From positions 1-14,645 of the forward strand of contig JAFGWO010000051.1 of assembly GCA_016937135.1 (NCBI GenBank): 14,645 nucleotides of DNA, written 5' to 3'. The translations under genes were made by a program, and so were the position numbers. The notes under the pieces are model-generated. The model saw only the letters and a list, made by a program, of their open reading frames with translations, had not been told where the DNA came from and searched no databases. This DNA comes from Pseudomonadota bacterium. Its GTDB lineage: Bacteria; BMS3Abin14. Below, one piece after another: positions 1 through 4,558 of this stretch (positions are counted from its first letter, which is position 1; the number at the start of each line of letters is the position of its first letter).

Positions 1-78
1 GAGAAGGAGCTTCGGTTTGCCATCCGGGAGGGGGGACGGACGGTAGGCGCCGGGGTGGTGGCCGACATCATCAAGTAA
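1..78 (+). CDS. tuf: Elongation factor Tu, C-terminal fragment (partial at window edge)
   Basis: Frame 1 reads 25 residues to a TAA at 76-78, including FAIREGGRTVGAGVV and ending DIIK. This is the near-invariant end of EF-Tu domain 3. EF-Tu is the cytoplasmic GTPase that delivers aminoacyl-tRNA to the ribosomal A site. The GTPase domain and start codon lie to the left of the window. The position just before rpsJ is the usual junction of the str cluster (rpsL-rpsG-fusA-tuf) with the S10 cluster. Only the last few percent of the protein is visible, but the motif is diagnostic. Confidence 0.93.
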   Translation, partial: EKELRFAIREGGRTVGAGVVADIIK

Positions 79-159: not shown

Positions 160-471
160 ATGGAACAGCAAAAGATCAGGATCAAACTGAAGGCCTACGA
201 TCATCGGATCCTGGACGCTTCGGTCAGTGAGATCGTGGAAACGGCCAAGCGCACCGGAGCCCGGGTCTGTGGTCCCATTCCGCTCCCGACGCGCCGAAGC
301 ATGTATACGGTTCTCCGTTCACCGCATGTCGATAAGAAATCCCGGGAGCAGTTCGAGATCCGCGTCCACAAAAGGATGCTGGAGATCGTTGAGCCCACGC
401 CCCAGACGGTCGATGCTCTAATGAAGCTGGACCTTTCCGCCGGGGTGGATGTCGAGATCAAACTTTCTTGA
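160..471 (+). CDS. rpsJ: 30S ribosomal protein S10
   Basis: The protein is 103 residues, the same length as E. coli S10. It carries the family signatures [11 protein letters not shown] (11-21), [17 protein letters not shown] (28-44) and the C-terminal [18 protein letters not shown]10 sits in the 30S head and, in E. coli, also pairs with NusB in antitermination. I chose ATG 160 over the upstream in-frame ATG at 121 because the extra 13 residues match nothing in the family and 160 gives the standard start [15 protein letters not shown] at 152-155 and GGAGG at 143-147 lie upstream. It opens the S10 cluster. The next gene is rplD rather than the expected rplC. Confidence 0.97.
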
Positions 472-484
472 GGGGACTGTGGTC

Positions 485-1105
485 ATGCCTCAGCTGGATG
501 TTTTCAATCTAAAAAACGAGGTGGTGGGGAAAGTGGACCTCGCAACCTGGTGGGACAAGGAGGGGAACGATTCTCTCATGCACCAGGCCGTGGTGGCCGC
601 GATGGCCGGCGCCCGCAGCGGGACCCACGCCGCCAAAGGACGCTCCGATATTTCGGGAGGGGGCAAAAAACCCTTCCGGCAGAAGGGGACGGGCAACGCG
701 CGGCAGGGAACGACCCGCGCGCCGCAGATGAGGGGCGGCGGGGTAGTTTTCGGGCCGCAGCCGCGGGACCACTCCAAATCCCTGAACAAGAGGATGTCGC
801 GAGGGGCCCTCAAGAGCGCTTTGGCCCGGAAGGCAGCCTCGGGAAATCTTCTTGTCCTGGAGGAAATAGTTCTGGAGGGCCCTAAAACCAGGGAGCTGGT
901 ATCCGCCATGGACCGGTTCGATGTGGTGAGCGCCCTTGTCCTGGTGGAAGGGGTTACGGCAGAACTTGAAAGGGCCTCCTCCAACCTGGGCTGGGTGAAG
1001 GTCGTTGAGCCCGGGCAGATCAACATTTATGACGTCATGGCTTATGAGAAGCTCATCATCAGCCGGAAAGCACTCCAGGTGCTGGAAGGAGCGCTGTCGC
1101 AATGA
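485..1105 (+). CDS. rplD: 50S ribosomal protein L4
   Basis: The protein is 206 residues, normal for bacterial L4 (about 201-210). The long basic loop that reaches into the exit tunnel is recognisable around residues 50-97, with SGGGKKPFRQKGTGNARQG and then RGGGVVFGPQPRD. L4 is an early 50S assembly protein that lines the peptide exit tunnel. In E. coli it also represses the S10 operon through the leader mRNA; whether it does so here is unknown. ATG 485 follows an AGGGG at 471-475 with 9-nt spacing and gives the family start MPQLDVFN. An upstream in-frame start at 449 would lie inside rpsJ. Its stop overlaps rplW by 4 nt (ATGA). It lies 13 nt after rpsJ, where rplC is normally found. Confidence 0.97.
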   Translation: MPQLDVFNLKNEVVGKVDLATWWDKEGNDSLMHQAVVAAMAGARSGTHAAKGRSDISGGGKKPFRQKGTGNARQGTTRAPQMRGGGVVFGPQPRDHSKSLNKRMSRGALKSALARKAASGNLLVLEEIVLEGPKTRELVSAMDRFDVVSALVLVEGVTAELERASSNLGWVKVVEPGQINIYDVMAYEKLIISRKALQVLEGALSQ

Positions 1106-1392
1106 GGCCCTATTCAGAGGTTATCATCCGGCCCCTTCTGACGGAGAAGAACGCAAAGATGAAGGAAGCCGAGAACAGGGTGGCTTTTGAAGTTGCCCCG
1201 GACGCCAACCGGATCGAGGTTCGCAAAGCGGTTGAGGAAGCTTTTAAAGTATCCGTAACCCGGGTCAATATTCTGAATATCAGGGGAAAATTTAAAAGGC
1301 TTGGTAAAAATACCGGGAAACGCCGGGACTGGAAGAAAGCCATTGTGACCCTGAAAGAAGGCAGCACGATAGAGTTCTTTGAGGGAGTCTGA
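1102..1392 (+). CDS. rplW: 50S ribosomal protein L23
   Basis: The protein is 96 residues, typical of bacterial L23. It starts MRPYSEVIIRPLLTEK, the family signature (I.RP..TEK), and contains the basic loop GKFKRLGKNTGKRRDWKKA (62-80). L23 sits at the mouth of the exit tunnel and is the docking site for trigger factor and SRP. The ATG shares an ATGA overlap with the rplD stop, implying translational coupling to L4. A 51-nt gap containing a possible hairpin (1399-1423) separates it from rplB. Confidence 0.97.
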   Translation: MRPYSEVIIRPLLTEKNAKMKEAENRVAFEVAPDANRIEVRKAVEEAFKVSVTRVNILNIRGKFKRLGKNTGKRRDWKKAIVTLKEGSTIEFFEGV

Positions 1393-1443: not shown

Positions 1444-2268
1444 ATGGGAATCAGGACATTAAAACCGACATCTCCGGGACGAAGGTTCCAGACCGTGAAC
1501 GATTTTTCGGAGATAACCTCTGTCGGCCCTGAAAAGAGCCTTCTTGCCCCCATTAAGAAAAAAGGGGGCAGGAACAACCTCGGCAGGGTGACGGCATGGC
1601 AGCGCGGTGGAGGTCACAAAAGGCGCTACAGGATCATCGATTTTAAAAGGAACAAGTTCGATGTGCCGGCCAGGGTCAGCACCATAGAATACGATCCCAA
1701 CCGGAGCGCCAATATTGCCCTTCTGATTTACGCGGACGGAGAAAAGAGGTATATCCTCGCCCCTCAGAACCTCAAGGTCGGGGATGAGATCGTCTCCGCG
1801 GAAAAAGCTGATATCAGGCCCGGCAACGCCATGAAGCTGCGCAGCATTCCCCTTGGCACCCTCGTGCACAACGTCGAGCTCAAGGAGAACAAGGGGGGTC
1901 AGATGGTCAGGAGCGCCGGGGGGTTTGCCCAACTCATGGCCAAGGAAGGGGATCTTGCCACCCTTCGACTCCCTTCCGGAGAGATCCGGATGGTTCGTCT
2001 CGATTGCATGGCGACCATCGGGCAACTTGGGAACGCGCAGCACGAGATCGTTTCCCTGGGGAAGGCGGGGCGCAAACGCTGGCTCGGCAAAAGGCCCAAT
2101 GTACGAGGCGTGGCCATGAACCCGGTCGACCATCCCATGGGGGGCGGGGAGGGCAAGAGCTCCGGCGGCAGGCATCCTTGTACGCCTTGGGGAAAACCGA
2201 CCAAGGGCTACAAGACAAGGAACAGGAACAAGGCTTCCGAGCGGTTTATCGTTAAGAAGCGTTCTTGA
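1444..2268 (+). CDS. rplB: 50S ribosomal protein L2
   Basis: The protein is 274 residues, full length for L2. N-terminal motifs are [12 protein letters not shown] (3-14) and [17 protein letters not shown] (47-63). The C-terminal signature [12 protein letters not shown] (226-237) holds His230, which aligns with E. coli His229 (mature numbering), a residue implicated in peptidyl-transferase function. The tail is rich in Lys and Arg. L2 is a primary 23S rRNA binder near the peptidyl-transferase centre and supports subunit joining. The start is ATG 1444, 6 nt after AAGGAG (1432-1437). The end is followed by a strong AGGAGG that serves rpsS. Confidence 0.98.
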
Positions 2269-2281
2269 CAGGAGGAAGGCT

Positions 2282-2563
2282 TTGAGCAGGTCCATTAAAA
2301 AAGGCCCCTTTGCGGACGATCACCTCGTTAAAAAGGTGGCGGCCATGGAGGAAACCGGGGAGAAAAAGGTCGTCAAAACCTGGTCAAGACGGTCGATGAT
2401 CCTCCCCGAAATGGTGGGATACACCTTCGCCGTTCACAACGGCAAAAACTTTGTGCCCGTTTTCGTTACGGAGAACATGGTTGGACACCGGCTGGGGGAG
2501 TTCTCTCCCACCAGATTATACCGGGGCCACACCTCCAAGGCGGACAAACGGGGCAAAAAATAG
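2282..2563 (+). CDS. rpsS: 30S ribosomal protein S19 (TTG start)
   Basis: The protein is 93 residues, normal for S19. It begins (M)[14 protein letters not shown] and contains [16 protein letters not shown], both family signatures, and ends near the conserved [10 protein letters not shown] and [13 protein letters not shown]19 forms a complex with S13 in the 30S head and touches the A-site finger of the large subunit. The initiator is TTG at 2282, 6 nt after an AGGAGG (2270-2275). No in-frame ATG exists nearby, so the non-ATG start is well supported. It lies between rplB and rplV as usual. Confidence 0.97.
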
Positions 2564-2589: not shown

Positions 2590-2922
2590 ATGGAATCAAC
2601 CGCAAGAGCAAGATATGTCCGGATCGCGCCGCGTAAGGTGAGATTGGTGATGGACATGGTCCGGGGAAAACCGGTGGAGGAAGCCCTCCAGACCCTCGGC
2701 CTTGTCCGGAAGGCGGCCTCGCCCGTCCTCGTCAAAGTGATCAGGTCGGCCCTGGCAAATGCCGAGAACAATTTTCAAATGCACACCGACGGCCTTCTGA
2801 TCAAGAAGGCGTGGGTGGACGAAGGACCGACGATGAAGAGGTTTCTCCCCCGTGCGATGGGAAGAGCCACCCCTGTGAGAAAAAGGACGAGCCACATTAC
2901 AGTCGTTCTTTCCGAAAAGTAA
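2590..2922 (+). CDS. rplV: 50S ribosomal protein L22
   Basis: The protein is 110 residues, typical for L22. The globular part carries [20 protein letters not shown] (10-29) and a long C-terminal beta-hairpin, [20 protein letters not shown] (79-98), which in known ribosomes reaches the exit-tunnel constriction opposite L4. The start ATG 2590 is preceded by a modest GGAG-like site. It stops at the TAA that forms part of the rpsC Shine-Dalgarno region (TAAGGAGG), so the two genes are closely linked. Confidence 0.97.
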
Positions 2923-2933: not shown

Positions 2934-3590
2934 TTGGGTCAAAAAGTCCATCCCAAAGGTTTCCGTCTGGGGATCATCAAAGACTGGGATTCCCGCTGGT
3001 ACGCTGAAAAGGATTACTCGAAACTTCTTCATGAAGATATCCGGATAAGGAAGTTCATCAAGGAGAAGCTCTTTAACGCGGGTGTTTCCAACATCATCAT
3101 CGAGAGGACCGCCAAACGCGCAAGGATCAATATCCATGCGGCCCGTCCCGGGATCATCATCGGAAAGAAGGGTGCGGAGGTAGAGTCCCTCCGGAGAGAA
3201 ATCCAGAAGATGACCGACAAGGACATCTTCATCAATATCGTCGAAGTGCGGAAACCAGAGGTGGAAGCGCAGCTCGTCGCTGAAAATATCGCGGGACAGC
3301 TGGAAAGAAGGGTTGCCTTCCGCCGGGCCCTCAAAAGGAGCGTCTCTTCCGCCCTGCGGTTCGGGGCTGAAGGGATCAAGGTTATGGTGGCCGGCCGTTT
3401 AAACGGCGCGGAAATGTCGCGCCGGGAATGGTACAGGGAAGGGAGGGTTCCCCTCCAGACCCTCAGGGCCGACATCGAGTACGGCTTTGCCGAAGCGAGG
3501 ACCACCTACGGGGTGATCGGAGTCAAGGTCTGGGTTTTCAATGGCGAAAACATGGGACCCGGCGCTGCCGGCGAGGATGCTTCCGCCTGA
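2934..3590 (+). CDS. rpsC: 30S ribosomal protein S3 (TTG start)
   Basis: The protein is 218 residues. It starts (M)[13 protein letters not shown], the S3 signature. The KH domain has its GIIIGKKG loop at 73-80. The C-terminal domain carries RRALKR (130-135), the region whose basic residues give E. coli S3 its mRNA helicase role at the entry tunnel, and [18 protein letters not shown] (164-181). S3 sits at the mRNA entrance with S4 and S5. TTG 2934 with its GGAGG is preferred, because the frame is open back to 2811 but that would add 41 residues overlapping rplV. The tail ([15 protein letters not shown]) is short and acidic. Confidence 0.97.
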
Positions 3591-3642: not shown

Positions 3643-4059
3643 ATGTTAATGCCGAAGAAAGTCAAATTCCGGAAACAGATGCGCGGCCGCATGAAGGGTG
3701 CCGCCAACCGGGGAAATGAATTGAATTTCGGGGATTTCGGCCTCCAGGCCTTGACGCCCGGCTGGGTTACCTCGCGGCAGATCGAGGCGGCCCGTATTGC
3801 CATCACCCGGCACGTCAAGAGGGGCGGAAAAGTCTGGATCCGGGTCTTTCCGGACAAACCGGTGACGAAGAAGCCCGCCGAGACCAGGATGGGAAAAGGA
3901 AAGGGATCGCCGGAAGGGTGGGTCGCGGTGGTCAAGCCGGGCCGGATCCTTTACGAACTTGAGGGAGTGACCGAGGATGTCGCGCGGGAGGCCCTCAGGC
4001 TGGCTTCCCACAAGCTTCCCATCAAGACCCGGATGCTTGTCAGGGAGGAAGTTAAATGA
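3643..4059 (+). CDS. rplP: 50S ribosomal protein L16
   Basis: The protein is 138 residues, typical of L16. It starts [16 protein letters not shown] and contains [16 protein letters not shown] (81-96). Arg82 aligns with E. coli Arg81, the site hydroxylated by the L16 oxygenase in that species. L16 binds near the A-site tRNA elbow and is a late assembly protein. The start ATG 3643 lies 8 nt after AGGAG (3630-3634). The alternative ATG at 3649 is less likely, since the MLxPK start is conserved. The stop overlaps rpmC by 4 nt (ATGA). The 52-nt gap before it holds a 12-bp GC palindrome (3605-3616). Confidence 0.97.
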
Positions 4060-4262
4060 AAGCCGCGGAACTGAGGGACCTTACCCTGGATGAGCTTGTC
4101 CGGAAAGAGGCGGAGATCGGAGTGGAGCTTTTCAACCTGAGGTTTCAGCTGGCAACCAACCAGCTGGAAAACCCCATGCGGCTCCCCCTTACCAAAAAGG
4201 ATCTTGCGCGGGTAAAAACCGTGATCGCGCAGAAAAAGCGTGCGGCGGAGAGGGTTGAATAA
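4056..4262 (+). CDS. rpmC: 50S ribosomal protein L29
   Basis: The protein is 68 residues, within the L29 range (60-75). It reads [20 protein letters not shown] and later [19 protein letters not shown], the helical-hairpin signature of the family. L29 lies at the tunnel exit next to L23 and contributes to chaperone and SRP docking. It overlaps rplP by 4 nt and rpsQ by 1 nt (TAATG), so translation of these three genes is probably coupled. Confidence 0.96.
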
Positions 4263-4558
4263 TGTCAGACACAGAAAAAACCGGTGGGAAGATCCTTGTC
4301 GGCACGGTGGTGGGAAACAGAATGGACAAGACCGCGGTAGTCCAGGTCCACAGGAGGTTCGTCCATCCCGTTTTCAGGAAGATCGTGGGCAAAAGGGTTA
4401 AATACAAGGTCCATGATGAAAAGAATGAACTCAATGTCGGGGATACGGTCCGAATAATCGAGACCCGGCCCATCTCCAGGGACAAGCGGTTCAGGCTGCT
4501 GGATGTCGTGGAGCGTGCCGTGCAGGATCAGGACCTGGTCCAGGGAAATGAGGGTTAG
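4262..4558 (+). CDS. rpsQ: 30S ribosomal protein S17
   Basis: The protein is 98 residues, somewhat longer than E. coli S17 (84) because of a hydrophilic N-terminal lead ([10 protein letters not shown]) and a C-terminal acidic tail. The OB-fold core is clear: [16 protein letters not shown] (14-29), then [19 protein letters not shown] and [14 protein letters not shown]17 is a primary 16S rRNA binder in the 30S body. The start overlaps the rpmC stop by 1 nt. It is the last gene of the S10 cluster and lies 2 nt from rplN, so the S10 and spc clusters run together without a visible terminator. Confidence 0.96.

Follow-up and report, generated by a model that had tools for sequence, protein, structure and literature searches.

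Where is the gene for ribosomal protein L3 in a genome whose S10 cluster passes directly from rpsJ to rplD? The gene order rpsJ-rplC-rplD is very stable in bacteria, and L3, the product of rplC, is required at the first step of 50S assembly. The window, i.e., the whole stretch of DNA analysed here (14,645 nucleotides), is contig C172 of G000, a draft MAG of 1.71 Mb in 292 contigs and 80.9% complete. Its S10 cluster is arranged as follows.

1-78, forward strand: 3' end of tuf (EF-Tu), an EF-Tu-like end peptide in frame, with TAA at 76-78
160-471, forward strand: rpsJ (S10), 103 aa, from the ORF list; tblastn identity 88-94% in 10 of 10 relatives
472-484, forward strand: rpsJ-rplD spacer of 13 nt without L3, at the position of rplC in the canonical order
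485-1105, forward strand: rplD (L4), 206 aa, ATG at 485, from the ORF list; 61-72% identity to 10 relatives
1102-1392, forward strand: rplW (L23), from the ORF list and comparison with relatives
1444-2268, forward strand: rplB (L2), from the ORF list; served as tblastn query
2282-2563, forward strand: rpsS (S19), with a TTG start according to the ORF list
2590-2922, forward strand: rplV (L22), from the ORF list and comparison with relatives
2934-3590, forward strand: rpsC (S3), start picked by resemblance
3649-4059, forward strand: rplP (L16), from the ORF list and comparison with relatives
4056-4262, forward strand: rpmC (L29), named from reading the sequence alone
4262-4558, forward strand: rpsQ (S17), the final gene of the S10 set, from the ORF list and comparison with relatives

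Relative to the canonical bacterial S10 operon (rpsJ-rplC-rplD-rplW-rplB-rpsS-rplV-rpsC-rplP-rpmC-rpsQ), the window lacks rplC, and the other ten of its 11 genes keep their order. The spacer carries a Shine-Dalgarno-like AGGGG, which overlaps the TGA stop codon of rpsJ at 469-471, and a tblastn search of the window with L3 returned no L3 adjoining L4. Just upstream of rpsJ, the EF-Tu end is matched in all ten relatives at 87-96% identity. An earlier note on this DNA had described rplC as missing from a 13-nt gap, and its coordinates are exact (rpsJ stop ending at 471, rplD ATG at 485, no L3 between); it was also right that the other genes of the set are present, rpmC by reading only. The word missing holds for this locus and not for the genome, where a search with the L3 profile (PF00297), a check that the note had proposed, returned exactly one match, on the minus strand of another contig (G000:C101:3241-3498; 51.8 bits against a gathering cut-off of 22 for PF00297 / uL3). 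The gene is as follows.

L032 2899-3780 (contig C101, 4,113 bp), minus strand of C101: relocated rplC, 293 aa, a complete L3

Residues 4-212 of this protein align to solved bacterial L3 structures (best E 1.5e-63, 8crx chain d), and 23 of the 78 residues past position 215 are D or E, forming an acidic C-terminal tail. Contig C101 belongs to the same organism as the window, because its GC content is equal (0.565 vs 0.564), its neighbouring genes (aminotransferase, ArsR, TatA and tRNA-Sec) are kept in the family of G000, and G000 falls within the same six-genome subclade in both a 13-protein tree and the L3 tree. Thus, rplC is relocated in G000, and not lost, which was one of the options that the earlier note had left standing. 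The moved gene is preceded, at a distance of about 190 nt, by a tRNA-Sec gene with a UCA anticodon (L032 3966-4063), and the interval between them holds a GC-rich hairpin with runs of A and T at its sides.

The arrangement is common to the family. The sample comprised 12 genomes, which are also all the genomes returned for the phylum; 11 of them yield rplD, and the same 11 each show one L3 match. In every one of these 11, rpsJ directly precedes rplD with a spacing of 11-15 nt, the comparison with relatives that the earlier note had also recommended. The remaining genome, G010 (71% complete), yielded neither L3 nor L4. In a listing of L3 clusters, 68 precede a fall in score from E 3e-85 to 2.5e-70. 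Three of the genomes consist of a single contig, namely G001 (100% complete), G002 (73%) and G008 (81%), and L3 and L4 are there separated along the contig by about 1.7 Mb, 330 kb and 33 kb, respectively. As a fixed address for rplC, the tRNA-Sec gene holds only in part: the two lie within about 1.8 kb of each other in six of the 11 genomes (G000, G004, G006, G007, G009 and G011) and about 8 kb apart in three (G001, G003 and G005), while in G002 and G008 rplC is located elsewhere, away from tRNA-Sec. The acidic tail of L3 is very variable in length across the family, with 11-98 aa past residue 215. It was considered as a consequence of relocation and rejected as a rule, because it measures only 11-12 aa in G001, G004 and G009, and because a long tail is present in the operon-bound L3 of G017 (L157).

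Free-standing rplC genes are also encountered outside the family. Among 49 genomes of other-family relatives, 48 yield L3 and L4 (G012 yields neither), and in six of the 48 rpsJ directly precedes rplD, with L3 elsewhere: G039 (L189), G042 (L192), G044 (L194), G051 (L201), G054 (L204) and G059 (L209). A further set of 80 L4 loci from named genomes, selected by similarity and not as a random sample, with identities of at most 47%, has L3 beside L4 in 78 cases; L092 starts at L4 and says nothing on L3, and L077, from a Pseudomonadota MAG, has no L3 beside L4 and an L3 elsewhere in its genome. When the rplC state is placed on a 13-protein tree with 81 rows, 59 of them genomes and 22 selected from the 80 L4 loci (FastTree, local supports only), the state without rplC needs seven changes, and the starred branches force at least six. 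On this tree, the move appears to have arisen independently several times, with at least six origins. An entire family with a displaced rplC, and no fewer than six independent cases in a sample of modest size, show the order rpsJ-rplC-rplD to be conserved but not required. Three stretches, L165 (G015), L205 (G055) and L208 (G058), have no S10 upstream of their L3-L4 pair within the stretch; the G055 contig begins close to L3, and G015 and G058 may have rpsJ elsewhere. In the L3 tree, a weakly supported group of 14 rows (SH-aLRT 84) takes in six of the seven free-standing L3s from outside the family. This may be a hint of gene transfer among free-standing L3s, or of a rate shift common to them.

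Upstream of the moved gene, all 11 family genomes carry a promoter-like site, TTGAC[GT]-17 nt-TANNNA, positioned 12-18 nt before an invariant CTA. A strict promoter scan of the G000 site does not report it, because its second box ends in A and not in T. Each of the 11 genomes with rplC also has a leader, about 60-110 nt long and about 80 nt in most members, which contains invariant blocks. The sequence after the promoter-like site runs in the order CUAAA-(A/C)-C-AU-(C/U)-C, a hypervariable hairpin, GGAUAAGAU-(A/G)-G, GGAG and ATG. The two invariant blocks, CUAAA and GGAUAAGAU, are situated downstream of the promoter-like site and ahead of the Shine-Dalgarno sequence, and one 9-mer outside the latter is common to all 11 upstream regions. 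By comparison, the 100 nt upstream of rpsJ contain no 6-mer common to the 11 genomes, and words shared upstream of the 13 further ribosomal protein genes of the window read as coding ends or Shine-Dalgarno sites. Since most of these other upstream stretches are coding, rpsJ is the only fair non-coding control.

The invariant blocks are predicted to pair as a helix-loop-helix. In helix P1, a C-rich 5' strand (CUCC in nine of 11) would pair with the GGAG of the Shine-Dalgarno sequence; P2 consists of CUA:U(A/G)G and leads into a 4x4 internal loop, AAMC/AAGA; the strands of P3 read AUYC...GGAU and are closed by the hypervariable tip. In the core, 97.8% of cells are paired, compared with 30-43% when slid by 1-3 columns. 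Two P3 core pairs vary on both sides, and one pair farther out swaps between C-G, G-C, U-G and G-U in eight leaders and has no standard pair in three. The covariation is modest and its shuffle control weak: of 500 shuffles, 45 reached the observed number of paired cells, 35 the covariation score and 160 the both-side changes, for an alignment of 11 sequences that are 10 distinct ones in the core. Folding energies are unexceptional (z from -2.16 to +0.43). P1 is predicted together with P2 in the minimum-energy fold of nine of the 11 leaders, P1 being absent from those of G005 and G011. Centroid folds contain P1 in seven leaders and lack it in G002, G005, G007 and G011. The predicted probability that the Shine-Dalgarno sequence is unpaired is at most 0.26 in nine leaders, and 0.82 and 0.87 in the remaining two. 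In five of the 11 leaders, that of G000 not among them, a rival hairpin is predicted in which GAURG(G) pairs with CC(U)AUC and the Shine-Dalgarno sequence would be looped out. In G002, both arms of this hairpin are unlike those of the other four, yet they still pair, and P2 keeps a wobble pair.

A covariance model of the leader, R1, was built from the same 11 leaders that it then detects, and therefore only its silence elsewhere is informative. Searched with Infernal at stricter filters over 145 genomes, R1 gives matches in 11, all of them family members, and none in the other 134, which are G010 plus 133 genomes from outside the family. Each of the 11 family genomes with rplC has one strong site, always before rplC, at 61-82 bits; the next best match reaches 26 bits. 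Beside the two best of these weak second matches (26 and 25 bits), no ribosomal protein gene was recognised when the ORFs were read. The 26-bit match, L246 (G004:C20:6726-6795), follows a tRNA-like match at a distance of about 200 nt. We also considered the same leader for the free rplC genes of the seven other lineages, whose upstream sequences differ, and rejected it, as none has a strong R1 site; the sole weak match there (L152 300-377, 14.8 bits) is separated from the L3 gene by more than 4 kb and lies on the opposite strand. The leader is therefore not required after relocation. In the seven of the 11 loci searched against Rfam 15, no family matches the leader strand. In G002, one sub-threshold fluoride match overlaps the leader, but on the strand opposite to it.

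Ribosomal-protein leaders often, though not necessarily, resemble the rRNA site of their ligand. Resemblance of the leader to the L3-binding part of the ribosome was assessed on the 23S rRNA stretches of two family genomes. In G003, the 23S match (L233, G003:C71:954-4743) is complete and spans 3,790 bases against a model of 2,925 positions, so that a large insertion within it is probable; in the complete genome G001, the match is a 267-base 3' piece only. Neither R1 nor R2 finds a counterpart of the leader in these two stretches: R1 gives two weak matches (E 0.6 and 6.5), both outside the 23S piece and on the opposite strand, and R2 gives none. A pattern composed with both sequences in view, GCUA-stem-GGAUAA, picks out the same hairpin close to the 3' end of each stretch, with a chance rate of 2 and 3 of 300 random sequences, and a stricter pattern matches the G001 stretch only. 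The hairpin found by the pattern is one that we take to lie in domain VI, where L3 binds. Mimicry of 23S rRNA by the leader is a weak proposal.

The S10 operon of E. coli is regulated by L4, and L3 would have lost such shared control on leaving the transcript. We propose that rplC left the S10 cluster in an ancestor common to the whole family, with the rpsJ-rplD gap closing behind it, and that it landed probably near the selenocysteine tRNA gene. The free gene would be transcribed from its own promoter, presumably the promoter-like site. Its conserved leader would act as a ribosomal-protein leader and most likely as a feedback switch for L3, in place of that shared control. Excess L3 would most likely bind the region of the internal loop and P3, lock P1 and block initiation, and when L3 is scarce the Shine-Dalgarno sequence would be freed, in five of the 11 leaders via the rival hairpin. 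L3 is the likeliest ligand on the criterion that rplC is the only regulated gene, as applied to ribosomal-protein leaders in PMC7247131, Table 1. For this reading as a whole, we estimate a probability of roughly two in three. A more specific version is put forward tentatively, at somewhat under even odds: the L3-sensing leader may have evolved after escape from L4-type control, with the AAMC/AAGA loop and its helix mimicking the 23S rRNA hairpin that lies close to the 3' end, and with the Shine-Dalgarno sequence toggling between a sequestered and a looped-out state.

Other explanations have been proposed or can be conceived for the empty rplC position. That the genome has truly lost L3, an option raised in the earlier note, would fit the local absence at the rpsJ-rplD junction and nothing more; it is ruled out by the full-length gene on C101, and the single L3 match in 11 of the 12 family genomes speaks against it as well, so that we consider its chances negligible. 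The same is true of sequence deleted at 472-484 in assembly or binning, an option that the note had also raised, with the C101 gene as a stray contig. This would suit a MAG as fragmented and incomplete as G000, and a contig as short as C101, but the common junction in 11 family genomes, three of them single contigs, excludes such a deletion, and C101 carries family-conserved neighbours and an L3 that branches inside the family. A subtler alternative is xenologous replacement, in which a foreign L3 gene was acquired near tRNA-Sec and the native rplC of the S10 cluster was deleted afterwards. tRNA genes are common integration sites, and no outgroup with rplC in S10 is tied to the L3 of the family on the L3 tree, where 13 of 78 inner branches are starred and where one protein of the length of L3 is too short to settle the deep branches. 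Against this, the family L3s form a clade of their own (support 100) with no supported foreign sister, and we regard replacement as improbable.

Relocation with a conserved upstream element still leaves room for different views of the element itself. The leader could be real but sense another ribosomal protein, such as L4, or act as a temperature or mRNA-stability element, given that L3 as ligand is only inferred, that the 23S tests with models R1 and R2 were negative, and that hairpins sequestering a Shine-Dalgarno sequence can be thermosensors. However, the invariant letters of the internal loop (AAMC/AAGA) point to ligand recognition beyond stability alone, the strong leader sites occur before rplC only, and the criterion of the only regulated gene favours L3; this alternative is rather unlikely. 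That there is no regulatory RNA, the conserved letters being simply promoter, transcription start and Shine-Dalgarno sequence, would agree with the low folding z-scores, the weak shuffle control and the small alignment. It is distinctly improbable, since CUAAA and GGAUAAGAU fall outside the promoter-like site and the Shine-Dalgarno sequence, the pairing fails when slid, and no such block, apart from words read as coding ends or Shine-Dalgarno sites, occurs upstream of the 14 other ribosomal protein genes of the window, with rpsJ as the one fair control.

Relocation of a single ribosomal protein gene is an already known kind of event. In PMC8046335, as far as its main text goes, "deletions" from the str-S10-spc-alpha cluster denote one gene taken out of the operon, whether lost or translocated, and the present case is similar in that one gene leaves the operon; it differs in lineage, as Gammaproteobacteria and Bacilli are treated there, and the term rplC is absent from that main text. 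For Leptospira, the available text of PMC2481283 places rplC in its usual position. Among the matches listed in a literature search, largely of non-subscription sources, no title or abstract opening concerned a moved rplC or an L3 leader. As a story of loss, the rplC case is ordinary; its moderate interest lies in a move shared by the whole lineage, together with a new candidate ribosomal-protein leader.

The closest counterparts of that leader are ribosomal-protein leaders such as the single-gene L17 and L31 leaders of PMC7247131, where Shine-Dalgarno sequestration is among the mechanisms named. Like these, the rplC leader is a lineage-restricted 5' UTR, here with a predicted structure, of a single ribosomal protein gene, and it shares with such leaders a predicted sequestration of the Shine-Dalgarno sequence. 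Unlike them, it precedes rplC, and it is without an Rfam 15 match in the loci searched; no L3 leader is among the 20 in Table 1 of PMC7247131, the table that this comparison covers; the paper lists 35 earlier leaders separately. The family leader makes testable what becomes of stoichiometric feedback once a ribosomal protein gene leaves its co-regulated operon. Should L3 bind it, L3 would join the autoregulating ribosomal proteins, and the leader would offer a compact RNA for studies of L3-RNA recognition.
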